Shown here one piece after another: positions 1,422-18,320 of a stretch of 25,438 nucleotides of DNA (position 1 is its first letter; each line of letters opens with the position of its first letter). A program made the position numbers and the translations under genes. The stretch is from a virus. The stretch lies in IMG/VR virus record IMGVR_UViG_3300030061_003881, positions 1 to 25,438 of that record, one strand, 5' to 3'. The notes under the pieces are model-generated. The model was not told the DNA's origin and made no database searches. It saw only the letters and a list, made by a program, of their open reading frames with translations.

Positions 1422-1895
1422 TTATGAGAGGTCAATTATATCGTGAATTTTAGTGTTCAGTTGTTTTAAATCCCCATGCTGAGTGAGTAAAACACAGTTT
1501 CTATAATGTTGCCAGTTAATTGGGAATTTGGTGTCAACTACACCACCATTAAGCTTTTTGATTAACTCATTTAAGGCATTTATAGTATATAATGTATTTG
1601 TTTCTTTCTTCCTATGTACTAAAATAGTATTTGGAGGAATTTCTCCCACATTACCTTGATCAACATTATAAGTGATCACGTACTCATCATTGCTTTTGAT
1701 ATAAAGAACAAACATTTTATTATACATTATAGTATATGTAGTTGAAAGTTCTTTGACTTTAGACTCAATCTCCTCGGATTTCACAAAAGTACAAAATAAT
1801 TTATTATTCAAATCTCCTAAATTTATTAAATTGTCATTGTCATATTCTATGGTATACATATCAAGAGTTTGGTCAAAAGTCATAATTGGTTCCAT
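1422..1895 (-). CDS. Hypothetical protein downstream of the PolA-like gene
   Basis: I do not recognise this protein. The frame is open back to an ATG at 1934, but that start would overlap the polymerase gene by about 60 bases. I prefer the internal start MEPIMTF at 1895, which overlaps the polymerase stop by 23 bases; ATG 1883 is also possible. From 1895 the product is about 157 residues, mixed alpha/beta, with no signal peptide or membrane segment. The C-terminal third contains INWQHYRNCVLL and ends in a helical KIHDIIDLS. The overlap implies translational coupling to the polymerase, so a role in replication is a reasonable guess but is not shown by any motif. Confidence 0.65.
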   Translation of the reverse strand: MEPIMTFDQTLDMYTIEYDNDNLINLGDLNNKLFCTFVKSEEIESKVKELSTTYTIMYNKMFVLYIKSNDEYVITYNVDQGNVGEIPPNTILVHRKKETNTLYTINALNELIKKLNGGVVDTKFPINWQHYRNCVLLTQHGDLKQLNTKIHDIIDLS

Positions 1896-3135
1896 GTGTA
1901 ATTTTTGTATTAAGTTTATGTTTTTTAAATACACCTAATATACGTTCTAGTGTATCTCTTTCAGAGTTTTTGAAATCTAATAAGAATGCATCATATGTGT
2001 ATAAAACTAATTTTGTATCTTTATTTTTTAATATTTTAATTATGTCCCATAATATATAGACATTTTTTGCAGTTTCAAAATTTTGTAGTAGATAATTGAA
2101 TAATTTTTGGGGATTCATGTTATCTAACTTAGACTTTTCAAATTTATATTTTGAGAGAGGGCATTTAATAAAACCTTTATTTTGAAAATCATTCCACATA
2201 TTATCTATGAATTTTTGGATTTTCTGAAAAAACTCAAGATCCCTATACTGCTCAAATACACCCCCATAAAGCTGTTTAAACGTAAGCTCTTTAGATTTTT
2301 TGTAATCCACCCCATACATTTGTGCAAAGGATTTATGAATATCATCAGTATCGAACTTATAATCAATAAGATAACTTGCAAGGGTAGGATGATAAGCAGA
2401 AATATCAATTTCAATAAATCTGTCATTCCTCGGTATAAACGCTTTCCTACATCCATTTTCTTTATTTAACGCTGCGAAGTTAATCCCTCCGAACCTATTT
2501 GAGGGTCTAGTTGTTGTGGTTCTGTAGTTATATTGTGTGTACACTTTATCTCCCAAATCTTGGTTGAAGTGTTCTCTGAATAACTCGGGAGAAACTCGTA
2601 TACCATTTCTTTCGATAGCGTTGAATACCAATGGTACACTGTTGTTGTAAAAGTTGTTGATTGGTTCATTGAAGTATTGTTTTAAATTATGATAATTTTT
2701 TTCACATGTTTCATAATGTTTAACGATAGGAATAATTCTGTTAATATCCAACTTATCTTTGTTTCTTTGTTCTAAAATTTGATGAGCTTTTGTAGTTTCC
2801 ATCTCATATTCAGGGCAAAGTAAAGAAATATCATTTATATTTCTACGCGTAAAATAATGCAGAAATTCTTTTTTCCCCCAAACATGCAACAAATCATATT
2901 TATTAATTAAATGTGCAATGTACTCGCTGTCTAATGGCATAGATTCACTATGGTTTATTGATATCATGTATCCTTTACTTGCATTTATAGGACGTAAGTA
3001 TACAAGAGATACTTCTGTAATTGTTGGATGAGTTTTGTATGAGTAGGGAATAACTTCTATATAAGCTTCCTTATGATATTCTTTATTCTGGTATAAATTC
3101 CAGAATTGTTCACTATTTTCTACTAACCAAAACAT
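1873..3135 (-). CDS. Reduced family A (PolA-like) DNA polymerase
   Basis: Residues 205-390 carry the family A polymerase motifs in order. TTTTRPSN at 206-213 and GGINFAALN match the 'TxTGRLSS...NLQN' block. Motif A is IEIDISAYHP, with catalytic Asp244. Motif B is KKSKELTFKQLYGG (279-292), equivalent to the O-helix K...F...YG. Motif C is YTYDAFLLDF, with Asp382 and the usual His replaced by Tyr. The product is 420 residues, shorter than T7 polymerase (about 700) or Pol I (about 930). The N-terminal 110 residues look like a decayed exonuclease fold without the D-x-E motif. The motif A glutamate that acts as steric gate appears to be His249. T4 itself uses a family B polymerase, so this may be the replicase of a divergent lineage or an accessory enzyme. 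A promoter-like element lies immediately upstream. Confidence 0.75.
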   Translation of the reverse strand: MFWLVENSEQFWNLYQNKEYHKEAYIEVIPYSYKTHPTITEVSLVYLRPINASKGYMISINHSESMPLDSEYIAHLINKYDLLHVWGKKEFLHYFTRRNINDISLLCPEYEMETTKAHQILEQRNKDKLDINRIIPIVKHYETCEKNYHNLKQYFNEPINNFYNNSVPLVFNAIERNGIRVSPELFREHFNQDLGDKVYTQYNYRTTTTRPSNRFGGINFAALNKENGCRKAFIPRNDRFIEIDISAYHPTLASYLIDYKFDTDDIHKSFAQMYGVDYKKSKELTFKQLYGGVFEQYRDLEFFQKIQKFIDNMWNDFQNKGFIKCPLSKYKFEKSKLDNMNPQKLFNYLLQNFETAKNVYILWDIIKILKNKDTKLVLYTYDAFLLDFKNSERDTLERILGVFKKHKLNTKITHGTNYDF

Positions 3136-3172: not shown

Positions 3173-3801
3173 TAATATTTAGTATAATTTTCTTTGAAAA
3201 TTGAACTAAACCCATACCATTTAAACTTTTTTTCTATAAGAGATACAATGTTTTTGTTTGTATTATAAACTTTTTCAATATCCCCAGTTAGGGACCATGG
3301 AAGTTGAATTGATGTATATAAATCAAAAGCTATTGTTGGTGTTTTAGATGATAATAAATCTGATGTTTGTTGGTTTATTTCAAAATATAAAAGTTCATTA
3401 TTTTTTTTACAGAAATATCTTTCAAACTCTCCTAATTGATAACTAGCTGTGTTAGGTATAGGTGAACTTGGGGGAGGTAGTAGTCTATTTTTTGATGTAT
3501 TTGAAATATTGGCATATTCTAAGTTAATACCTGTAATTTCTGGTAGGCTGTAACTTTCATAACTTTTACTTTGTACTACTATTTCATTTTTTAAAAAACT
3601 ACCATCAAGATTTTCATCAGTTGGTTGGGGGTTAGGGGTGAGTCTTCTTATTGGTGGGGTATTTGGTGTTTTACCTGTGAAAAATTGATTTGATGATATC
3701 ATATGGTAAAAACCAGTATATCTTTCACCTGTGGAAGTTAGAAAAAAATCTTCCCCATTTGTGTATAAATTAGTTTTTATTTGTGATTTTGGATAGTACA
3801 T
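3160..3801 (-). CDS. Hypothetical structural protein, last gene of the tail/baseplate run
   Basis: The 213-residue product is not assignable to a named T4 gene. It begins YYPKSQIKTNLYTNGEDFFL and continues with an aromatic-rich segment, GERYTGFYHM...FFTGKTP (residues 25-50). A proline-rich linker spans roughly 45-62 and a second one about 105-115. The C-terminus is helical with many aromatics. No signal peptide or membrane segment is visible. The ATG overlaps the stop of the hub gene as TAATG, so the two are probably translationally coupled. Its position at the end of the baseplate cluster suggests a virion or baseplate component. It may be cotranscribed from the late region, because no promoter-like 9-mer precedes it. 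Confidence 0.75.
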   Translation of the reverse strand: MYYPKSQIKTNLYTNGEDFFLTSTGERYTGFYHMISSNQFFTGKTPNTPPIRRLTPNPQPTDENLDGSFLKNEIVVQSKSYESYSLPEITGINLEYANISNTSKNRLLPPPSSPIPNTASYQLGEFERYFCKKNNELLYFEINQQTSDLLSSKTPTIAFDLYTSIQLPWSLTGDIEKVYNTNKNIVSLIEKKFKWYGFSSIFKENYTKYYLAS

Positions 3802-6800
3802 TATTTAGAATGGTCTATTGAAGGGTCTATATTAGCGTGGATATGAGGAGGATCATGGTATAAAATTCCTGTAAAGCCTGCATCTTGTAATAATTCTATC
3901 ATTAAATTAATTTCATCAACTGATTGGCTTATCCAACCAGCATTTACTCTAACATCTATAGCTAAACCTCTAGTATGAGTTGTATTTGATGGATTCACTG
4001 GTGATGTACTTGGTTTTGGATATGAACTTGCATTTTTAAGTACTGTTTTTCCTTGGTGAAAATGATCATTACCTGCGGTTATTGTAACATTTGAAATTAC
4101 ATCAAACAAATCATCATACTTATCATCATTTGATATATCAAGCAACTTTAGTAGAGTATTGTATAATCCTTTTGAAATATCACCACCATTTCCTAATTCT
4201 CCAGGTTTACTGTAATTACCATTACCTTTAATAAATATCTTTTTATCAAATTTTCGAGATCTTGATTGTATTTGTGAATTGATTTTCATAACATAAGAAT
4301 TTGGATCACTTCCTTTACGTATTACAAAATTATCAAAATCTTCTCCCAGTTGGTTTTTATATAATTTTAAATATTTTTTCTTTTGTTTCTCATCTTCAAT
4401 TATAATTGGATTTGGATTAGTCTTTGGATTTGTAATTACTGTTGGGCTATCTGTTATTCTTGTAAATGTTGAATTATTTGTTTTGATAGTTCCTTTTCTC
4501 ATTCCTTTTTGTCCAATTTCATTAAGGTTTAGGTCTATACTACCTAAAACATCATTGGTGTTGATTAAGTTTTTTACTGTAGCTATACTATCTATTTTTG
4601 TTGTCCATTTATTATTTTTTAACTCATGGTTTACATTAGTTGTAATAAATTCTAATTTTTCTGGGTAGTTTGTTGGTAAAAAGGTAGAATCAACTTCTAT
4701 TTTTTGATATATTTTCATTCCAGATAAACCATCCATTTCTAATTTTAAATTAAAAGGTAAAAATCCTTGACCTGATGATTTATTTTTATCATGTGCTTCT
4801 TGTACTGTTTGAGCTTGTAAAAGTTTATAATACTCAGGAATTACTTCTAAATTTGTTGAAATACTTTCAGGGGATAAATATACTGCCTGTGTTCCATTAA
4901 ATGCTATATTTTTATCTTTTAGTGCTTTAGTAAGATTAAGTGTTGCTCTTGGAGCTGTTATTGGGGTTGTGAATATCATATCCCAAGTAAACATCATATC
5001 AGCTGCTTCTCCAAGTGCATCCCAAAAAGTTGGAAATACTAACCCTGCGTAAGAATACCAATTTATAACACTATCTTCTTCTGATGTTACAGATAATCTT
5101 TTATAATAATTTTCTTGAATAGTTTCATATTTTTTGATTAATTTATTATTTTGAGGGGTGTTATTTAAAGAGATAGCTTCTTTAAATCTGTCAATAATTC
5201 CTATATTCCATTTTGAAAAAGCTGTGGCCTCAGATCCTACTACATATCCATCAGCTGTAGCCCCAACTGTTATCATAGTAGCATATTCTGGGGTGATTTC
5301 AGTAGTTAAGCCTACATTATGTATAAAGTTTGAAGTGTCATTTTTAACATTATAACCATATAAATCAAATGGAGCTTTTATACCTGACCCTGTTGGGTAA
5401 ACATTTGATGGAAGAAATTCTTTATTTGGTAGTGGGGTTTGATCAAAAATTTTAATAATGTTGGTTTCTGGGTCTATTTTTGGTTCTAATTTATTAACTT
5501 TCCCTAAAGAATTACTAACATTATTACATAATTTTCTTAAAAAATCCATGAATACTATATTTCCATCTTTATCAGCTTCACCAAATAATTCAAGAACATG
5601 GTTTATATTAATATAGATATTCATAATATTCCCATATGTAGTGTTTGTTGCAGGATAATTTCTTTGAAACATTTGGAGACCCCCAAATATTGTATCTATT
5701 AGATTATTTGGTTTTTTTACTTGATAGTTTGAAATTATGCAAATCCTAGGATCTAAAGATACCATATTAGGAATATAATACATTAAATTTGTTTCAGGAT
5801 TGGTATCTATCTTTAATGAAGGATATGATGTTCCATCATTATTTTTTAGATTTTGTATTAATAACTTATTAATAAATGATAATAAAGCACCAAATCTTAT
5901 ATACCATTGATGTTTTGGTTCAAAATATGACATTTGAACAACCTCATAATCAAATCTTGATGTAGATGTTTCATCAATTTCTAATACCCTATTAGGAGAT
6001 GATTTGTCTTTCTCGTTAGGGTTAAAGAGATAATGATAAATTTTAGGCATAACAATTGTTCTTCCTATAGGTATATATGCTTGAGTTGGTCTTGTTGCTT
6101 TCCCATTAAATGAATCCTTACATGTTTTTACAAAAACTGGACCATTAGTATTTGGATTTGAAGAGTTAAAAATATCATTTGCTTCTTCAAAGAAACTCTT
6201 ACCTGTTGAGTCAAGTAAAGCTTTTGTTTTTATATCATAAAACACTTTTGCTAATTCATTTGATTCTCTTTTACTATCAATTAAAGGTATGACTTCATCT
6301 TCTTCTGCTGCTTCTTCTGGGTCTTTTGAGTTTGCTGGTATACTAAATGGAGCTACATTTAGTTTTAAGGATTCAACAACATCTCCTAAACTTATAATCT
6401 CTAAAGTAATATCATATGAACCATCTGGGTTGAATGTCCATTTAAAATTAGAAATTTTTCCTAAAATACCATCATAACATCCAGAATATTTTTCTCTTTC
6501 TTCTTCTAAAATATCTAAACATGAATAGTAAGTTGGATTAAAATCACTTCTAAAAAAATCTTTTTCTATTAATGTTGTTTGAAGGGGGGTGACTGGGTTA
6601 GATTTGTTATTATTATCTAAATAATGACTATCTCCCCATTCTAAAAGGATAGCATATCCTAATCTTAAATATAAAACATCAATTATATCAAATTGAAGTT
6701 TATTATGTGCTTTTATTTTTATTGTTGCTCTTTTTATAGAGCCTCTTTCTAAAGTTCTTACATTTACACTTTCTATACCAGGCATTGGAACTATACCAAA

Positions 6801-7256
6801 ATCAGTTCCTCCTATTCCATAAGCACCATTAGGACCTAAAAAAGTAGTTTTCTGTGTTGTTGTAAACCCCTTACCATTATAGTATATATCTTGTACTCTT
6901 TGGTAATCCTTATTAGCTAGTGCTTCATCAAGATTTTTTTGGTCTTGTTTTGAAAAATTTATGGTATTATCTATTTGTGTATCTGTACCTGTGCCTGTTT
7001 TAGTAGTTCCATTAAATAAAGTAAAACTTTTAGCTAACCCCATTCCTAAAAATTCTGGTTTATTTTTTAGTTCTGGGATTAAGTCGAGTCTATCTTGTTC
7101 TATAAAAGTACCACTGGCTAATTTTATCCAAGAAGTTCTAGAATTAAGATAAACTAGATCTTTATCTGTTCTGTCTTTTTTACCGTGTACTTCTTGCCTA
7201 AGATTTATTTGATTTTTTACATAATCTTTAAACGGTTCTCCTACTATATTCCCCAT
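3801..7256 (-). CDS. Large baseplate hub protein with C-terminal M15-type peptidase domain
   Basis: The product has 1151 residues. Roughly residues 150-300 look like a tail hub domain (a beta-rich run with GSIKRATIKIKAHN and YAILLEWGDS), and the middle is long and beta-rich. The last 95 residues form a probable zinc D,D- or L,D-carboxypeptidase/endopeptidase. THTRGLAIDV supplies His1094 and Asp1101 in the S/TxHxxGxAxD pattern, and PPHIH at 1136-1140 supplies the HxH pattern. In T4 the hub is gp27 plus gp5, and gp5 carries a lysozyme that opens the murein during injection; here a peptidase seems to do that job on a single chain. Its position between the LysM protein and an unknown virion protein, far from any lysis gene, supports an entry role. 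The hub label is from context and the peptidase motif is seen directly. Confidence 0.78.
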   Translation of the reverse strand: MGNIVGEPFKDYVKNQINLRQEVHGKKDRTDKDLVYLNSRTSWIKLASGTFIEQDRLDLIPELKNKPEFLGMGLAKSFTLFNGTTKTGTGTDTQIDNTINFSKQDQKNLDEALANKDYQRVQDIYYNGKGFTTTQKTTFLGPNGAYGIGGTDFGIVPMPGIESVNVRTLERGSIKRATIKIKAHNKLQFDIIDVLYLRLGYAILLEWGDSHYLDNNNKSNPVTPLQTTLIEKDFFRSDFNPTYYSCLDILEEEREKYSGCYDGILGKISNFKWTFNPDGSYDITLEIISLGDVVESLKLNVAPFSIPANSKDPEEAAEEDEVIPLIDSKRESNELAKVFYDIKTKALLDSTGKSFFEEANDIFNSSNPNTNGPVFVKTCKDSFNGKATRPTQAYIPIGRTIVMPKIYHYLFNPNEKDKSSPNRVLEIDETSTSRFDYEVVQMSYFEPKHQWYIRFGALLSFINKLLIQNLKNNDGTSYPSLKIDTNPETNLMYYIPNMVSLDPRICIISNYQVKKPNNLIDTIFGGLQMFQRNYPATNTTYGNIMNIYININHVLELFGEADKDGNIVFMDFLRKLCNNVSNSLGKVNKLEPKIDPETNIIKIFDQTPLPNKEFLPSNVYPTGSGIKAPFDLYGYNVKNDTSNFIHNVGLTTEITPEYATMITVGATADGYVVGSEATAFSKWNIGIIDRFKEAISLNNTPQNNKLIKKYETIQENYYKRLSVTSEEDSVINWYSYAGLVFPTFWDALGEAADMMFTWDMIFTTPITAPRATLNLTKALKDKNIAFNGTQAVYLSPESISTNLEVIPEYYKLLQAQTVQEAHDKNKSSGQGFLPFNLKLEMDGLSGMKIYQKIEVDSTFLPTNYPEKLEFITTNVNHELKNNKWTTKIDSIATVKNLINTNDVLGSIDLNLNEIGQKGMRKGTIKTNNSTFTRITDSPTVITNPKTNPNPIIIEDEKQKKKYLKLYKNQLGEDFDNFVIRKGSDPNSYVMKINSQIQSRSRKFDKKIFIKGNGNYSKPGELGNGGDISKGLYNTLLKLLDISNDDKYDDLFDVISNVTITAGNDHFHQGKTVLKNASSYPKPSTSPVNPSNTTHTRGLAIDVRVNAGWISQSVDEINLMIELLQDAGFTGILYHDPPHIHANIDPSIDHSK

Positions 7257-9943: not shown

Positions 9944-12307
9944 TTAAGCTGAGTAGAGACTACCAAATGGGTCATCCATTTCTACCGTTTTATTTGCTTT
10001 TGTAGATATTACTAATTCTTGCAGTAGTGAATTTGTTTTTCTTTGTTCTCTTCTTTGTTCTTTTCTTTCTTGTCTTAGTTCTTGTCTTGAAACTTCATCA
10101 ACACCACCACCACCTATTGATGGTTTAGTTCCCATATTTGGACCCATAGATATTCCATCTTGTTTTTTTCCTTGAAATATAGTTCCTAATCCTGGACTTG
10201 TTACTATAGGACCACCATTAGGGTCAATTCCCATATCACCTACTTGTTTTGGTTTTGATATTTTGTTAAGCATCATCATCCCCCCAGCCATTGAAGCTAA
10301 AACAATTGCTGCTCCTACACCAAAGGTTAAAGAAGCATTCATAAAGAAAGCAGCGGCTCCTATAGCCACTAATAAAGAAAGAATAGCACCTAATGGTCCA
10401 TTTATTGATTTTGCCCATCCTAAAATAGCTGTAATGGGTGAAAGAATAAAATTAACAACTTCTAAAACACCTGTTATTATTGTAAAGATTGATGAAAGTG
10501 CTGGTTCCATAGCTACAAACACTTCTTTCATTTTTTCAACTGCTGCTGTAAAATCTTCTTGTTTACTTGTTTGATCCATTAAATTTTCAATACCTTCTTC
10601 TTCTAATTTTCTTTGGGCTCCTTCTACTCCATATTGTTCTATTAAATTATTTAATGTTTCTCTTCCTAATCCCTGATCTTTTTCTGATAATGCTACTAAA
10701 GCTTCCCTTTCCATAAGAGTTTTGGCTAATGATTCTCTTGTCATTCCAGCTGCCTCTGCTATTGCCTCTTGTTGGATTCTATTCATGTTTGAGAAATCAG
10801 CTGATGTTCCAATTTCTCTTGATATTTCCTCTGCTACTGTTTTATAGTCGTTATTTAATGCTGCTAATCTAGCTCTTTCTAAATTAATATTTCTACCTAA
10901 TAATAACTCAGCTTTTAATTCATTAGTAATAGAAGATTCAAAATTTAACAATGCATCAGCTGACGACTCTAACTGTTCCATTGTCATTCCTAATGATTTA
11001 GCTGTAGCTAATGCTTCACCTAAAGCTCTAGCACTTCCCCCTAATGATAATTGAATAGCAGAACTTGTATTACTTATAGCTTTTAATAAATCTTTATCAT
11101 TTATTAAAACTTTATTATTATATGCTGATATTTTAGCTTGTGCTAAAAATTGAGCTGTGTTATCATCTAAAGATTGACCATTTAAAAGACTTAATTTATA
11201 AGTCCCCATTATTTCTTCATTAGTTAATCCTGCTTGTTCTCTTAGTTTAGTAAATAATGCTAATTCCGCATCTGCAAATACAACACTAGTTCCTAATGAT
11301 TTATTTATTGCCATCAAGGATTCTTGTAAAGCTCTAGTATTAAGGTAAGTATCATTTGATAAAGCAGCAAAAGCTGTAAGTTCTCCTCTTACTCTAGATG
11401 CTTCCCCAAAGGTCATATTCATACCTTTAGCCATATCTCCTCCTGCTTTATCTGCTAATTTAAAAGCTTTAATCATTTCAGTTATGAGGAAAATAGGAAA
11501 TGCCTTTTTCATTAATGGACCTAAAGATTTAGCTCCTGCTTTTAAGGATAGCATTCCTTTTTTGGAAGCACTCATACCCTTTAACCTTTGGGCTGCTGCT
11601 CTACCTGATAGGTTACCTAATTCTTTTTCTAAACCTAATTGTTTTATTTTTTCTTTTGTTAATCCTTTACCTCCACTATCAGCTGCAGATTCAATACCCT
11701 GAGCCATTTTACGAGCAGCATCTGAGGCGTTTTCAAATCCTCCAGAGAATCTACTTAAACCTGGTATTGCTTTTGTTATATCTTTTAATCCCCCAAATGT
11801 TTTTACACCTAGATTTTGATTTATTTTTTTAGTAATTTCAAGTACTTTTTCAGATCCTACAAGGAATTCTTTTTGTGCTTCAATTGATCTTTTAATCTCT
11901 GCTGTTTGTGCTTTACTAAGATTTCCGTATTTTAAAGCATTTTGTAATTCTTCAAATCTTATTTTTGCTTTTTGTTGAAGTTTTTCAATATCTTTAGCAT
12001 CAGCTTCTACTTCACCTTTTTTAATTTCTAGTAATTTTAACGCAATACTAGAAATACCTCTTAATGCAGATTTAGATTGGGAAAGGTATGTGTTTTGTTT
12101 AGAAAGTTCATTTACACTATCTCTAAAAGAATCAGCGATAAATTTTAAATCGCTGTTCATTTCATTTAGATCAGTTCGTAAACCACTTAAATAAGTTCTT
12201 GCTATTTTTAAGTCTTTTTCATCAAATATAGGGGGAGTTTGACCTAATTGCTTTGAAAGTTTAACTATCTCAGCATTTATTTTTTTTATATCATCCGCAA
12301 GACTCAT
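9944..12307 (-). CDS. Tail tape measure protein (gp29-like)
   Basis: The 787-residue product has the layout of a tape measure protein. The first 180 residues are charged coiled coil. An Ala/Gly-rich helical middle follows, with long heptad-like stretches. A block of hydrophobic membrane-type segments lies at about 605-682 (IFTIITGVLEVVNFIL, AILSLLVAIGAAAFF and GAAIVLASMAGGMMML). After a Gly/Pro-rich linker there is a very basic helix of RQELRQERKEQRREQRK type near 740-758. It sets tail length inside the tube and is injected ahead of the DNA. The gene directly follows the tail tube and the frameshifted chaperone pair, the standard order for long-tailed phages. A hydrophobic patch at about 265-280 may be a further membrane-active segment. 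Confidence 0.85.
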   Translation of the reverse strand: MSLADDIKKINAEIVKLSKQLGQTPPIFDEKDLKIARTYLSGLRTDLNEMNSDLKFIADSFRDSVNELSKQNTYLSQSKSALRGISSIALKLLEIKKGEVEADAKDIEKLQQKAKIRFEELQNALKYGNLSKAQTAEIKRSIEAQKEFLVGSEKVLEITKKINQNLGVKTFGGLKDITKAIPGLSRFSGGFENASDAARKMAQGIESAADSGGKGLTKEKIKQLGLEKELGNLSGRAAAQRLKGMSASKKGMLSLKAGAKSLGPLMKKAFPIFLITEMIKAFKLADKAGGDMAKGMNMTFGEASRVRGELTAFAALSNDTYLNTRALQESLMAINKSLGTSVVFADAELALFTKLREQAGLTNEEIMGTYKLSLLNGQSLDDNTAQFLAQAKISAYNNKVLINDKDLLKAISNTSSAIQLSLGGSARALGEALATAKSLGMTMEQLESSADALLNFESSITNELKAELLLGRNINLERARLAALNNDYKTVAEEISREIGTSADFSNMNRIQQEAIAEAAGMTRESLAKTLMEREALVALSEKDQGLGRETLNNLIEQYGVEGAQRKLEEEGIENLMDQTSKQEDFTAAVEKMKEVFVAMEPALSSIFTIITGVLEVVNFILSPITAILGWAKSINGPLGAILSLLVAIGAAAFFMNASLTFGVGAAIVLASMAGGMMMLNKISKPKQVGDMGIDPNGGPIVTSPGLGTIFQGKKQDGISMGPNMGTKPSIGGGGVDEVSRQELRQERKEQRREQRKTNSLLQELVISTKANKTVEMDDPFGSLYSA

Positions 12308-12340: not shown

Positions 12341-12634
12341 TTATTTATACGATGTTTTCTTAGGTGATTGTTTAGAAAACTGAGGCATATTAGATGGATT
12401 TACTTTACCTGATGAGTCCATTACTGTTGTTTGGCCCTTACCTTGTGCTTTTTCATATTCTTTTTGCTCTTCCTTGTAATGATCTTGGATTTCTTTGAAT
12501 GTAAATTTCCGTAACCAAATAGGCATATGGTATACAGTATTGTAATCATATCCACCCTTACCATGAAATAAAATTTGGTGGATTTGTTTAAATAAATTTA
12601 ATCTTGATTGTTGGGCGTTATCAAACGTCAGGCC
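12341..12634 (-). CDS. Frameshift-dependent extension of the gp26-like chaperone (GT-type tail chaperone part)
   Basis: This frame is open from the run of seven T (12635-12641) to the TAA at 12341 and encodes 97 residues. The first ATG in frame is only at 12526 (MPIWLRKFTF...), but the 36 codons before it read as clearly protein-like sequence: DNAQQSRLNLFKQIHQILF, then HGKGGYDYNTVYH. No ATG, GTG or TTG lies between the upstream in-frame TAG (12650-12652) and ATG 12526. The likely product is therefore the gp26-like protein joined to this extension by a +1 or -2 shift. This fits the G/GT tail assembly chaperones of other long-tailed phages, in which the extension binds the tape measure, and the tape measure gene is next. 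If there is no shift, a 61-residue protein from ATG 12526 is the fallback. Confidence 0.72.
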   Translation of the reverse strand, partial: GLTFDNAQQSRLNLFKQIHQILFHGKGGYDYNTVYHMPIWLRKFTFKEIQDHYKEEQKEYEKAQGKGQTTVMDSSGKVNPSNMPQFSKQSPKKTSYK

Positions 12635-13349
12635 AAAAAAAGCTAACCCCTATGGGGATGGTGACCTCCTCATCACCATCTAAATCAAAATCCAAATTAA
12701 CATCTGGTTGTGTGTTTCTAATATGTTCTCTTAAAGCTCTAGAATCTATAGCTAATAAATAATTATCAACAAATTCTCTTACTGTTTTTCTTTCAGAATC
12801 TCCATTAACTGAGGTGATCATGTATTTTAATCTTGTTGATAGTTCATGGGATGCTTCTTTATTTATTTTTTTAAGACCCCTTAACTCTTGATCTATTTTT
12901 GTATCATCGTGGCCTGTTAAAATTTTATATGTAATTTTATTACCACTATGAGGTAAAGTAAATGAAAAATTATTTTCACCTTTTGATATTAATGAATCAT
13001 CAAACTTTTTATTATCTACTTCTGATAAATCCACTGTATGACTCTTACCATTTAAAGTAAATGTATAACTTTTACCATATCCTAAAATACGAGCAGCTAT
13101 TAGAACTGCGTTTTTGTCTCCTAAAATAAGGTCTTTATAGTTTATATCTTTATCTATAATTAAAGATTCAATTAATTTATCTAAAACTGTACCTTTTTGA
13201 ATGTATGATTGATTGGTTAAAATATCTTCTTCCTTAGCGGTCATATATTTTATTTCTATTTTACCTTTAGATAAAGGATGCCCTTCAGGATAAATTAAAC
13301 CTTTTGAGGGTAAATCTACCTCTTCTGAGGGAAACTTAAATTCTGCCAT
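12621..13349 (-). CDS. gp26: gp26-like baseplate hub/tail assembly chaperone (T4_baseplate family type)
   Basis: The 242-residue product begins FKFPSEEVDLPSKGLIYPEG, continues with KGKIEIKYMTAKEEDIL (residues about 29-45), and ends in an acidic stretch followed by IPIGVSFFWPDV. This is the pattern of the small T4-type baseplate assembly family that includes gp26 (208 residues in T4). Such proteins assist hub or tail assembly rather than forming the bulk of the tail. The gene lies between the tail tube and tape measure genes, the place of tail chaperone G in other phages. Five codons from its stop is a run of seven T from which ribosomes could shift into a 97-residue extension. A terminator and the ATATTTATA motif precede it, so it probably begins its own transcription unit. 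Confidence 0.75.
   Translation of the reverse strand: MAEFKFPSEEVDLPSKGLIYPEGHPLSKGKIEIKYMTAKEEDILTNQSYIQKGTVLDKLIESLIIDKDINYKDLILGDKNAVLIAARILGYGKSYTFTLNGKSHTVDLSEVDNKKFDDSLISKGENNFSFTLPHSGNKITYKILTGHDDTKIDQELRGLKKINKEASHELSTRLKYMITSVNGDSERKTVREFVDNYLLAIDSRALREHIRNTQPDVNLDFDLDGDEEVTIPIGVSFFWPDV
12635..12641 (-). promoter_or_regulatory. Candidate programmed frameshift site (T7 run)
   Basis: The coding strand reads AGC TTT TTT TGG in the gp26-like frame, five codons before its stop. Phe-tRNA on the second TTT can re-pair perfectly after moving +1 or -2, and both moves enter the long open extension frame. A -1 move would enter a different frame. Polymerase slippage on the homopolymer is a second way to reach the same product. 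Confidence 0.6.
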
Positions 13350-13446: not shown

Positions 13447-13935
13447 TTAGAAATTTAATACTGCGTAATCTAATCCTAATGTTAATTCGATTTGTTTAGC
13501 TTCGTTTTCTGTATCCCAGTTGTAATCACCGAAAGTAGCTTCTTTAATAAATGCTCCTTTTAGTATCCATTCTGAAACGATATCACCTACAGGTCCTAAT
13601 ACATTTACTGTAAGATCTTTTTTATAGAAATCTGAATAACCATCTCTACCTGTTACTGATTCATGTCCTAAACGAACCCATTCCATAACGGCTTGAGCAC
13701 CTGATGGAGTAATTGGATCGAATAAAGTCATGGTAACATCATTCCATACTGATTTACCCTTAACTTTTCTAAGGATGTTGATGTGGTTTAATATAACTTC
13801 ACCTTGTGTTAATGAAATTGCGCTTATCCCCTTAATAATAAAGCTTGGTATACCATCCATATAAAGGATGAATCTGTTAGCTTGCTTCGGTTCAAACGCG
13901 GTGAAGAATATTTCGTTAGGATCTAGTACTGCCAT
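13447..13935 (-). CDS. gp19: Tail tube protein gp19
   Basis: The 162-residue product matches T4 gp19 (163 residues) in length and layout. It has NRFILYMDGIPSFIIKG near the N-terminus, VTMTLFDPITPSGAQAVMEW in the middle, a D-LTVNVLGPVGDIVSEW strand, and the terminal IELTLGLDYAVL. It polymerises as hexameric rings to make the inner tube through which DNA passes. It directly follows the sheath gene and is bounded by its own motif upstream and a strong terminator downstream, so it can be transcribed as a short, abundant message. Confidence 0.93.
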   Translation of the reverse strand: MAVLDPNEIFFTAFEPKQANRFILYMDGIPSFIIKGISAISLTQGEVILNHINILRKVKGKSVWNDVTMTLFDPITPSGAQAVMEWVRLGHESVTGRDGYSDFYKKDLTVNVLGPVGDIVSEWILKGAFIKEATFGDYNWDTENEAKQIELTLGLDYAVLNF

Positions 13936-13981: not shown

Positions 13982-16054
13982 TTATGCTGGAAAAGTTGCT
14001 CCAGTTGGTAATATATTGAAATCTAGGTAGATAAATTCAGCTGTTTTAGTTGGTTGAATATAAATTTGACCTATCATTTGGTTTCTATCAATAACATCTG
14101 GTGTATTGTTTGAATCGTCCATTACTACTTTAAAAGCATATAATCCTTGTCTTTGTTGAACACTTGCTAAATATGGATTAACTTGTGTTAAGAAGTTATT
14201 TCTTGTTGCTATTGTGTTTTGTTCAAATACTAAGTTATCAGCAATTTGAGAAATGTATGATTTTAATTCAATTAATAATCTTCTAACATTTACTCTATCT
14301 AATGCTGATGCTGCTGTTTGTAATGTTTTCTGACCAAATACTACTACACCTGAATTAGGGAATGTAGCAATTGGATTTACATTAGCTTGGTATAAAGTAT
14401 CTCTATTACCATTTGTTAATTTTCTTTCTGCTCTTAATACAGTTGACATTCCACCTCTACTTAAACCTGCAGGTGCAAACCATGCTTCTCCTGCTCTATC
14501 ATTAAAGGCAAATACACCTGGCATCATTGTTGAAGCTGGTACCCAAACTTGAGATCCTAAATCTGGATCAATCGTTTGAACCCATGGCCAATACGTTGCG
14601 GCATATGAAGAATCTACAGATGATGCTTCATTTATTACTGAATTAATTTCTGAATTGTAATTTCTTAAATCTATTATAGATAAATTATCTCCTCTTTGCT
14701 GAGAAGTGTCTATCATTGTAGTTAATGGAGCTGAGTGGCTTTGTTTTGTTAAACCTGGTGCTACTATTAAATTATATCTATATTCATCTTGATTAGATAA
14801 TAAGTTAATTGAATTTGTATAATTGTCAGCTACTAATCCTTGAGTTTCTGTTCCTATGTTTTCATAGAAATTTCCTACAGTTGTAACAAATGGAGTACCT
14901 TCAGCTGCTCCCATTGCACCTGATGCGGCTACTGGTATTGATGCTGTGTATTCTGTTTTAGCATTTCCTGCATTATCAAAATAATTTAAAGTTTTGTAAG
15001 TTACATCTTTAACCCTTACATATCTACTTAATGTGTTATAAGTTCCTTCATTTTTAACATAATACTGACCGTTATCTGATGTTACTATTTGTTTTGAATT
15101 TCCTATTACTTTTTCAATGTAGTTTGAAGCATTTGGATCTAATGATAAATTAGACCAAGTCTCTAATACTGTTTTAGATGTTGTAATATCATCACCTCTT
15201 CTAATTAATAAACTAAATGTACCTGAGGCTGTATTTGGTGAAACAACTTCCCATCTAATATTATCTCTAGTACCATTAGTTAAATCTCCAGCTGCACCCT
15301 GAGAACCTGAGCTATTTTGATCAGTTCCTTCTGAAAGTGTTTCTAAAGTAAAGGCTGAGTCACTTACACTATCAGTTCCTCCTGCAAATGTAGCATATAC
15401 AGGAGCAGAACCCCCTATTATTTGTCCTAAAGATCCTGATGTTATAGTTTCACCATTAAAAGCAGTTCCTGCTGATGATGCTGAAATTGATATGGTATTT
15501 CCACCCTCATCATTTGCTACAACAATACCATTTAAACGTAAATTAACAGTATCTATAAATCCTGCTTTTGAACCTGTAAAGTAAAACATACCTATACCTG
15601 GTTGGTTTCCAGTAAATGAAGTAGATATAAAAGATTTAGGCCCATCAGGTGTTGATATTTGTAAACCATTAAATGGACCAGGAATACCATATTCAAATGT
15701 AACTGTTGATGTTAATCCTGCTACTGCGGTTTTATTATTTGGTATAACAGAACTAGTTGCGCTAGTGTAAGAACCACTAACTACTCTAGTCACCAATAGT
15801 GAATCTCCTCCTTGTTGGAAATAATTATATGCTGCTATTGAAGTCAAGTAAGTGTATTCTGCACTTCCACTTTCTACTATAGCTCCGAATCTGTTTTGAT
15901 AGTCACTATATGTAGTAACTAATGTTGGGATGCCTACTGGACCTTTTACTGTTGGACCTAATATAGCTGCGCCAGCTTGTATAGGTTGCGCTTGAAGGAA
16001 TGAATTGTCATTCTCGTTAGCTAATACACCTGGTGATAATAATACTTCTGCCAT
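13982..16054 (-). CDS. gp18: Contractile tail sheath protein gp18
   Basis: The product has 690 residues; T4 gp18 has 659. The N-terminus has LSPGVLANENDNS and GAAILGPTVKGPVGIPTLVT, the usual sheath start. A variable, Ser/Thr/Gly-rich surface region fills about 90-370. The conserved C-terminal domain (about 560-690) carries VVVFGQKTL, RVNVRRLLIELK, LYAFKVVMDDSNNTPDVID and the final EFIYLDFNIL strand. These form the interlocking domain that contracts around the tube during infection. The variable insert is typical and may face outward. It has its own motif 22 bases before the ATG. Confidence 0.95.
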   Translation of the reverse strand: MAEVLLSPGVLANENDNSFLQAQPIQAGAAILGPTVKGPVGIPTLVTTYSDYQNRFGAIVESGSAEYTYLTSIAAYNYFQQGGDSLLVTRVVSGSYTSATSSVIPNNKTAVAGLTSTVTFEYGIPGPFNGLQISTPDGPKSFISTSFTGNQPGIGMFYFTGSKAGFIDTVNLRLNGIVVANDEGGNTISISASSAGTAFNGETITSGSLGQIIGGSAPVYATFAGGTDSVSDSAFTLETLSEGTDQNSSGSQGAAGDLTNGTRDNIRWEVVSPNTASGTFSLLIRRGDDITTSKTVLETWSNLSLDPNASNYIEKVIGNSKQIVTSDNGQYYVKNEGTYNTLSRYVRVKDVTYKTLNYFDNAGNAKTEYTASIPVAASGAMGAAEGTPFVTTVGNFYENIGTETQGLVADNYTNSINLLSNQDEYRYNLIVAPGLTKQSHSAPLTTMIDTSQQRGDNLSIIDLRNYNSEINSVINEASSVDSSYAATYWPWVQTIDPDLGSQVWVPASTMMPGVFAFNDRAGEAWFAPAGLSRGGMSTVLRAERKLTNGNRDTLYQANVNPIATFPNSGVVVFGQKTLQTAASALDRVNVRRLLIELKSYISQIADNLVFEQNTIATRNNFLTQVNPYLASVQQRQGLYAFKVVMDDSNNTPDVIDRNQMIGQIYIQPTKTAEFIYLDFNILPTGATFPA

Positions 16055-16843: not shown

Positions 16844-17302
16844 TTATGCTGCTCCACCTGAAAATGGTGCGTCTGTGTCTAAACCATCAAATTCACTATC
16901 CATTTCTGCTACACTACCCCATACAGCTTTTTCAGCATCTAATGCTGCGTCAACTGCTGTTTGTACAGCTGCTGCTTTAGCTATTACTTCTACTTTCATC
17001 TCATCCATTTCTGTTTTTAACTCATCTAAAGATCTATATGCATCTGCGGCTGAAACATTTTTTACTATGTTTATTTTACTTGCCCATGCATCATCTCCAG
17101 CAGTTATGATATCTTCATATTGTCCTTGTTTTGTATCATAATCAGACTCTACTGCTGATACGTGTCCAGCTTGTGCTTCCTCTAATGATGTTTTTCTAGC
17201 GTTTCCGACATTATCAATACTTACAACGTTACTAGCCATTGCAGCTTCTCTTGTTTTAAGTCTTGTAGCTATTTTTTCTGCTATTAATTCTATTTGATTC
17301 AT
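16844..17302 (-). CDS. Ala-rich helical protein, third member of a tandem triplet
   Basis: The 152-residue product is nearly all helix, Ala- and Glu/Asp-rich, with no Cys and few aromatics. QYEDIITAGDDAWASK in the middle and SLDEL lines up with DYKDVTTGEDAVANA and SLDDL in the protein encoded at 17871-18320, and both end in a D/NSEF segment. The C-terminus is a short Gly/Ala tail (FSGGAA). It lacks its own 9-mer motif and is probably cotranscribed with the two genes before it, ending at the UUCG terminator. Location between fibre and sheath genes suggests a virion or assembly role, perhaps an elongated coiled coil. The family is unknown to me. Confidence 0.72.
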   Translation of the reverse strand: MNQIELIAEKIATRLKTREAAMASNVVSIDNVGNARKTSLEEAQAGHVSAVESDYDTKQGQYEDIITAGDDAWASKINIVKNVSAADAYRSLDELKTEMDEMKVEVIAKAAAVQTAVDAALDAEKAVWGSVAEMDSEFDGLDTDAPFSGGAA

Positions 17303-17339
17303 TTTGATATAATTTTAAATGTTATTCTATTGTTTAATT

Positions 17340-17831
17340 TTATGCTGCTCCGTTACCAGCTCCGTTACCAGCTCCGTTACCATTAGCACCGTTACCTGAT
17401 CCAACTCCAGCAAATCCATTATCAAAATCACTTGAATCTCCTAATTCATCTTTCCAATCTTGTAGATCAGATGCTTCTTGAGATAAAAGTGCAGTTATAT
17501 TTGTGTTTTGTTGGTCATCAAAAGCAACTAATACTGCTGTTGCCTCTGCTAAACCTTCAAATTTTGCTGTGTTAGCATCTACTGTATCTTCAACATATGC
17601 TAAATCTGCATTCATTGCTGATGTTTTTTGTGCTCTAGCTGTAGCGTTATCTGCTAATTTAGCTTGTACTGCAGCTTCATGTGCTGATAATGTTAAAAGA
17701 TATGAATCATCAGATGCTGATAATTTTCCGAAGTTTTCTACTCCTTTATTTTCCATATCTTGATTATGCTGTGTTAGCATAGCTGTTGCTTTATTTACTG
17801 TTAATACAGCTAAGTCTCTTAATCCTGCCAT
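17340..17831 (-). CDS. Ala-rich helical protein with Gly/Asn repeat tail, second member of triplet
   Basis: The 163-residue product is an Ala-rich helical rod up to about residue 125. A WKDELGDSSDFDNGF segment follows, comparable in place to the ends of its two neighbours. The last 20 residues are a Gly-Asn-Gly-Ala repeat made by a 12-base tandem repeat in the DNA. There is no Cys and only one Trp. The A/T-rich leader (ATAACATTTAAAATTA, then CAAAATG) is nearly the same as that of the next gene, as expected if gene and leader were duplicated together. Function is unknown; an elongated structural protein with a flexible tail is the simplest reading. Confidence 0.72.
   Translation of the reverse strand: MAGLRDLAVLTVNKATAMLTQHNQDMENKGVENFGKLSASDDSYLLTLSAHEAAVQAKLADNATARAQKTSAMNADLAYVEDTVDANTAKFEGLAEATAVLVAFDDQQNTNITALLSQEASDLQDWKDELGDSSDFDNGFAGVGSGNGANGNGAGNGAGNGAA
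17347..17396 (-). repeat. 12-base tandem repeat encoding a Gly/Asn/Ala tail
   Basis: Three exact copies of GCTCCGTTACCA (+ strand) at 17347-17382 are followed by a degenerate fourth. They encode the C-terminal NGAG-type repeats of the second Ala-rich protein. Copy number could vary by replication slippage. Confidence 0.9.
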
Positions 17832-17870
17832 TTTGTTTAATTTTAAATGTTATTAATTTGTTTAATTTTA

Positions 17871-18320
17871 TTATGCTACTGTCTCGAACTCTGAATTGAA
17901 TTGTGCAGTGAAATCAGCTGGTGTTCCTGTTTCTGTAGCAAATTCATTAATATCAGCTATGATTTCAGCTTGTTTTGTATTAAGAAGAGTTACTAAAGTA
18001 CCTCCTTCTGCAGAAATTTGTGCTCCTATAGTAACTGCTTCTGATCCTCCCTCTGCGAATAAATCGTCAAGAGAAGCTTCTGCTGTTGAATACATTGCAT
18101 TAGCTACTGCATCTTCACCTGTAGTAACATCTTTGTAATCCTCAGTATGACTTGTATATTGAGCATTTGCTGCTGCTTGTGCTTTAGTCATTAGTCTTTG
18201 ATGTTCTGCATTTAATTCTGCTAATTTAGTAGCATATTTTGCACTAAATGAACCATTCATGGAAGCTTCCATGTCCTGGATTTTTGCCCCTAGTCTATAA
18301 AAATATGATTGTTGTGACAT
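17871..18320 (-). CDS. Ala-rich helical protein, first member of a tandem triplet
   Basis: The 149-residue product is predicted mostly helical and is rich in Ala, Glu and Thr. The N-terminus is SYFYRLGAKIQDMEASM and the centre has DYKDVTTGEDAVANAMYSTAE, matching the third member of the triplet. The end is ADFTAQFNSEFETVA. It is the first gene of a three-gene unit whose 9-mer motif lies 105 bases upstream, so this unit alone has a long leader. No membrane segment, signal peptide or enzyme motif is visible. Position in the neck-to-sheath stretch suggests a structural or scaffolding role, which is inference. Confidence 0.72.
   Translation of the reverse strand: MSQQSYFYRLGAKIQDMEASMNGSFSAKYATKLAELNAEHQRLMTKAQAAANAQYTSHTEDYKDVTTGEDAVANAMYSTAEASLDDLFAEGGSEAVTIGAQISAEGGTLVTLLNTKQAEIIADINEFATETGTPADFTAQFNSEFETVA

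Follow-up and report, generated by a model that had tools for sequence, protein, structure and literature searches.

A proposed tail-assembly chaperone gene of a T4-related contractile-tailed phage with a probable +1 frameshift at UUU_U

Frameshifting in tail chaperone genes is reportedly conserved in several groups of T4-like phages, with T4 itself said to use genes 26 and 51. The tail assembly chaperone genes of T4-like phages have been identified (Vladimirov, Gautam and Davidson 2022, Virology 566:9-15), and citing papers mention separate short and long copies in some T4-like phages (PMC10885494) and poly-T -1 signals in T4-like TAC-N genes (PMC12846349). T4 has been termed an exception to G-T frameshifting, and +1 frameshifting is regarded as very likely in the tail chaperone of HSTV-2, a myovirus of Halorubrum (Atkins et al. 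2016, PMC5009743). The kind of gene treated here, a frameshifted T4-like tail chaperone, is already known, and the suggestion of a sequence-only reading of this DNA that such a shift is undescribed for T4 gp26 has been overtaken since 2022. What may be novel is the +1 polarity across a clade, together with an SD-like element conserved some 25 nt ahead of the site.

The window, i.e. the whole stretch of 25,438 bases analysed here (IMG/VR virus record IMGVR_UViG_3300030061_003881), carries all features described below on its minus strand. The gp26-like gene (12621..13349), the putative short chaperone form (TAC-N), encodes 242 aa ending in FFWPDV* and closes with AGC TTT TTT TGG CCT GAC GTT TGA. 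In profile searches its protein matches the baseplate hub family PHROG 150 (E 1.7e-7), by which it is assigned to the T4 gp26 type, and PF12322 (T4_baseplate) gave E 0.002 and 18.3 bits, under its cut-off of 24.5 bits. Close to the stop lies a run of seven T (12635..12641), read in frame 0 as TTT (12641..12639) and TTT (12638..12636) and followed by TGG. The +1 frame is open past this run for 97 codons plus a TAA at 12343..12341; the first ATG of this extension (12341..12634), a candidate TAC-C or GT-like domain, is codon 37 (12524..12526), which is dispensable in that several relatives are missing it, and a TAG at 12650..12652 shuts the +1 frame upstream. The sequence-only reading had placed the frame end SFFWPDV, the T run and the 97-codon frame correctly, and its statement that no ATG, GTG or TTG occurs from the ATG at 12526 back to the TAG at 12650 was confirmed in the sequence, there being none among the extension codons ahead of Met37. 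The -1 frame meets a TGA at 12628..12630, which every one of the 58 distinct sequences in our first set shares, and -1 slippage in the window would therefore be fruitless. With 238 residues from the gp26-like frame and 97 from the extension, the predicted frameshift product (TAC-NC, 12341..13349) would comprise 335 aa, which is the fusion length proposed before.

The two overlapping frames are situated, as in the G/GT kind and as the sequence-only reading had it, between a tail tube and a tape measure gene. The order is tail sheath (13982..16054; PF04984, E 5.7e-12), tail tube (13447..13935; PHROG 4542, E 1.6e-15), the gp26-like gene, and then a 787-aa ORF (9944..12307) that is the probable tape measure protein gene by position and length; it had no family match in profile searches, and its counterpart in Flavobacterium phage immuto is annotated as tail tape measure. 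Elsewhere in the window, three proteins of some 150-160 aa each, alike in style, are encoded in tandem between the sheath and fibre genes (16844..18320). By eye, a 420-aa ORF (1873..3135) looks like the palm portion of a DNA polymerase of family A (DISAYHPTLASYL, YTYDAFLLD), and the C-terminus (HTRGLAIDVR...DPPHIHANI) of a 1151-aa protein (3801..7256) resembles an M15-type peptidase.

Scanning with the gp26-like protein as query returned 80 loci, and further scans added distant ones, some of them from assemblies of Flavobacteriales, Winogradskyella and Saprospiraceae; among the isolate relatives are immuto and Microcystis phage Mel-JY01. The extension profile, run over 192 loci having the gp26 stop, matched 185, of which 183 have it in the +1 frame and two in another frame. 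Since 183 of the 185 relatives with an extension have both the site and an open +1 frame, the relation of the frames and the presence of the site are far more than chance, and the comparison strongly supports the earlier proposal of a programmed shift by which a GT-like extension is fused to a gp26-type protein. In the two exceptions, L103 and L107, the extension has its own ATG a few bases past the gp26 stop, and the site reads TTC TTG TAT (degenerate) in the former and TTC CTT TGG CCA in the latter. An own start for the extension thus goes with loss of the +1 relation, and these two loci, having the one and lacking the other, form a natural lineage control. They stand near the immuto subclade, and a coupled ATG start (TAGAAATG, TAGAAATCATG) seems to have replaced the frameshift in them. 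Sequence comparison provides a conserved site, an open and selected extension, this lineage control and one lineage in which only +1 re-pairing is possible; that the shift occurs, with what efficiency, and that the product acts as a chaperone is what we infer. We consider it highly probable that the locus encodes the tail-assembly chaperone of a T4-related contractile-tailed phage, in which a +1 slip at UUU_U leads to the 335-aa form, and ribosomes very probably skip one base near the end of the gp26-like gene on some passes.

The extension might instead be a separate small gene, translated into 61 aa from the ATG at 12526, or reached by ribosomes that reinitiate past the gp26 stop. Most relatives possess an ATG at the window's Met37 position, and a coupled ATG start did evolve in L103 and L107, but selection does not begin there: by uncorrected counts, pN/pS is 0.27 for the stretch from the gp26 stop to the Met37 column versus 0.26 for gp26, and conservation of the extension sets in at GLT, directly after the site and 36 codons ahead of the ATG. 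By this measure the pre-ATG part is under protein-level selection, as the sequence-only reading had anticipated, and the extension combines such selection with the lack of an initial start of its own, as expected of the G/GT kind. L039, L070 and L001 have no start codon at the Met37 position, and in L036 and L044 no ATG, GTG or TTG occurs anywhere in the extension frame, so that the pattern adverse to a frameshift, a conserved start at 12526 with nothing kept upstream, is not the one encountered. Furthermore, the gp26-like part and the extension were modelled as separate structures, and the model of the extension, confident for residues 1-60, has three helices, the first of which (residues 4-24) precedes Met37 and would be removed by a start at the ATG. 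A separate gene is accordingly very unlikely.

The G/GT kind calls for a conserved slippery site where the first frame closes, and the gp26-like frame indeed ends in one. Among 155 distinct +1 sequences the first site codon is TTT in 144 and TTC in 11, the second TTT in 141, CTT in 13 and CTA in one, the third TGG in 147, TAC in four and TTC in four, and the fourth CCT in 153 and CCA in two, while the Asp codon is GAC in 133 versus GAT in two, all of these being raw counts over related sequences and thus non-independent events, a dependence that disjoint pairs lessen. YTT_T (TTT or CTT, then T) is present in 154 of them. Gene-wide, TTT makes up 0.835 of Phe codons, CTT 0.17 of Leu, CCT 0.39 of Pro and GAC 0.17 of Asp, so that CCT would be expected in 39% and GAC elsewhere accounts for 17% of Asp codons. 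When 131 nonredundant sequences are compared in 65 disjoint pairs, 1.5 synonymous changes are counted over the last five gp26 codons versus 69.7 expected, with zero at both Phe codons of the site; this five-codon stretch is the lowest of the gene for synonymous change, and the constraint starts abruptly at the first TTT.

The direction of the shift was approached by a re-pairing analysis of the 155 sequences, in which full re-pairing of the P-site tRNA was required and wobble was allowed. A +1 site is present in all 155, at the second codon in 154, and the slip in the window would accordingly fall on TTT_T (12635..12638). The sequence-only reading had named +1 or -2, and a Mu-like -2 shift would reach the same frame, with re-pairing two bases back possible at the second codon in 143 of the 155 sequences, the window among them; the 11 TTC-TTT-TGG sequences, however, have +1 sites and no -2 site nearby, which upholds the former direction and leaves the latter with a very low probability. 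The same lineage speaks against RNA polymerase slippage at the T7 run, from which a mixed mRNA population would arise. Seven consecutive T are found in most of the clade, but the TTC-TTT-TGG sequences have only four in a row and the immuto-type three plus three (TTTCTTT), and there, as in the L092 group (TTCTTTTGG), the frame is equally open with the long homopolymer absent. Transcript slippage is extremely improbable. That a sequencing or assembly indel split one gene would be suggested by the homopolymer at the junction, but 183 loci from many metagenomes and the isolates immuto and Mel-JY01 share the frame relation, also without a homopolymer, and we give this explanation next to no credence. 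A +1 slip at the proline codon, CCU_G, in place of YUU_U is in our estimate quite unlikely: CCT, found in 153 of 155, is able to re-pair on CUG, this would fit most single lineages, and +1 slips on CCC are known in Listeria phages (PMC5009743), but L151 and L180 have CCA, which allows no re-pairing, RM378 has AAT at the proline position and keeps TTT TTT TGG, and the synonymous conservation of the two Phe codons would be left without a reason, while that of CCT follows from the Leu of GLT being encoded there in the +1 frame. Since the TTC-TTT-TGG lineage excludes both -2 and T7 transcript slippage in that lineage, we take the shift to be +1 and RF2-like, and among the sequences compared YUU_U is the best supported site for it.

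Under a +1 shift at YUU_U, standard decoding would yield the short gp26-like form, and in some ribosomes a P-site Phe-tRNA paired to UUU (12638..12636) would move one base forward onto UUU, much like the Leu-tRNA at CUU_U of the RF2 gene, so that the slipped base 12635 enters the re-paired codon and decoding picks up at GGC (12634..12632). The shifted ribosomes would thereby produce the 335-aa form with a helical gp51/GT-C type domain at its end. If lambda G/GT is a guide, the tape measure protein would be coated by both forms, with the extension aiding the polymerisation of tail tube subunits around it.

The window has an SD-like element, GAGGAGGT (12664..12671), some 25 nt before the slip codon. 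An SD-like hexamer occurs within 60 nt upstream of the site in 87 of 131 nonredundant relatives, versus 1.1% of the gene's other 60-nt windows; its spacing to the slip codon is mostly fixed at about 25 nt, and its Glu codons are GAG, whereas GAA is the norm. To our knowledge, this spacing falls outside those that stimulate +1 or -1 shifts. As a speculation, a 30S subunit held at the element, or a trailing ribosome, might push the leading ribosome forward. No alifold consensus RNA structure was found in the 46 nt around the site or in the 66 or 120 nt downstream.

At the level of fold, the model of the gp26-like protein (pLDDT 88) has an N-domain for which VIA-align gave as its best two matches 3klu (YqbN, Z 5.3) and the HK97 tail assembly chaperone 2ob9 (Z 4.8), with rows for unrelated structures at Z 3.9 and lower. 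We take 3klu, a B. subtilis prophage-type protein, to be a tail chaperone. With Z about 5, the two matches are modest and at most suggestive of a fold like that of tail-assembly chaperones; Foldseek with the gp26 model yielded nothing significant (HK97 2ob9 at rank 20), the gp26 sequence profile had no significant match among PDB chains, and Foldseek with the extension model found no match in the PDB. Lambda G/GT and the HK97 chaperone share with the locus a place between the genes for tail tube and tape measure and the short and extended forms (predicted for the locus), and HK97 also the N-domain match, but their shift is -1 and sequence similarity to the locus was not found. As a separate observation, PF20546 (DUF6760) weakly matches 21 of 82 extension domains (best E 0.0013). 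This family presumably occurs in contractile injection system loci next to T4_baseplate proteins, a placement from which the chaperone pair may exist in such loci as well; a DUF6760 search was silent in three host genomes and likewise in control genomes.

The proposed slip most closely recalls that of RF2 (prfB), CUU_UGA, in which a P-site YUU likewise moves to UUU; P-site YUU followed by U is found in 154 of the 155 sequences, and the immuto-type CTT TGG C is one base apart from the CUU UGA C of RF2. In RF2, however, the A site holds a stop codon, whereas the locus and its relatives have sense UGG, UAC or UUC, and the SD-like element is mostly about 25 nt off, not 3 nt upstream. The site may thus act in an RF2-like manner, yet it is no member of the RF2 type, since TGG, TAC or TTC in the A site is no stop. 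HSTV-2 differs from the locus in having an archaeal host. Among the relatives assembled here are more than 100 natural copies, now diverged, of a single probable +1 recoding site that is of bacterial type and lacks a stop codon; along with sister -1 lineages and lineages that have dropped the shift, they can serve comparison and experiment alike in learning what determines the direction of shifting. In addition, the annotation of genomes in this phage group is at fault, since it passes over the predicted long chaperone form, the 3' part of which appears as a small hypothetical gene or not at all.

T4-like phages of cyanobacteria, Rhizobium and Vibrio (P-SSM2, Syn30, S-CAM1, IC12 and others) share with the locus the gene order and the Phe-Phe position, but their gp51-type extension is in the -1 frame, i.e. 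of opposite polarity. In this set (L089, L201-L208, L090 and L091), the extension is preceded by T_TTT_TTC, a canonical -1 slip site, in 9 of 11 and by TTTTTTT or TTTTTTG in the others, and the gp51-type ORF is often without a usable ATG and often left out of annotation. The +1 extension is homologous to these -1-frame extensions, including annotated gp51 (hhalign probability 85.5, E 5.7e-6), and hence of gp51 type (TAC-C). In a gp26 tree of 46 sequences, with three changes of mode in total, the +1 rows group together bar one -1 row, L112, at their base, a placement that depends on a long branch. We would propose only tentatively, and with some doubt, that a deep polarity reversal took place at a homologous Phe-Phe pair, from which -1 at T_TTT_TTC in cyanophages and +1 at YUU_U before a sense codon in Bacteroidota phages are derived, and that the SD-like element at about 25 nt is a new kind of stimulator. 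Profiles of gp26 and of the extension, aligned by hhalign with single T4 gp26 and gp51, gave no significant match (T4 gp51 E 0.12); T4 gp26 ends in KEFFELL, and by eye there is a resemblance between the extension and the end of T4 gp51. Like the locus, T4 thus has a gp26-type N part and a C-terminal domain, but its genes 26 and 51 are separate and divergent, where the locus would be one gene with a +1 shift; and, to judge from the sequences, a large and mostly marine clade shifts forwards, whereas the T4-like cyanophages examined appear to shift backwards.
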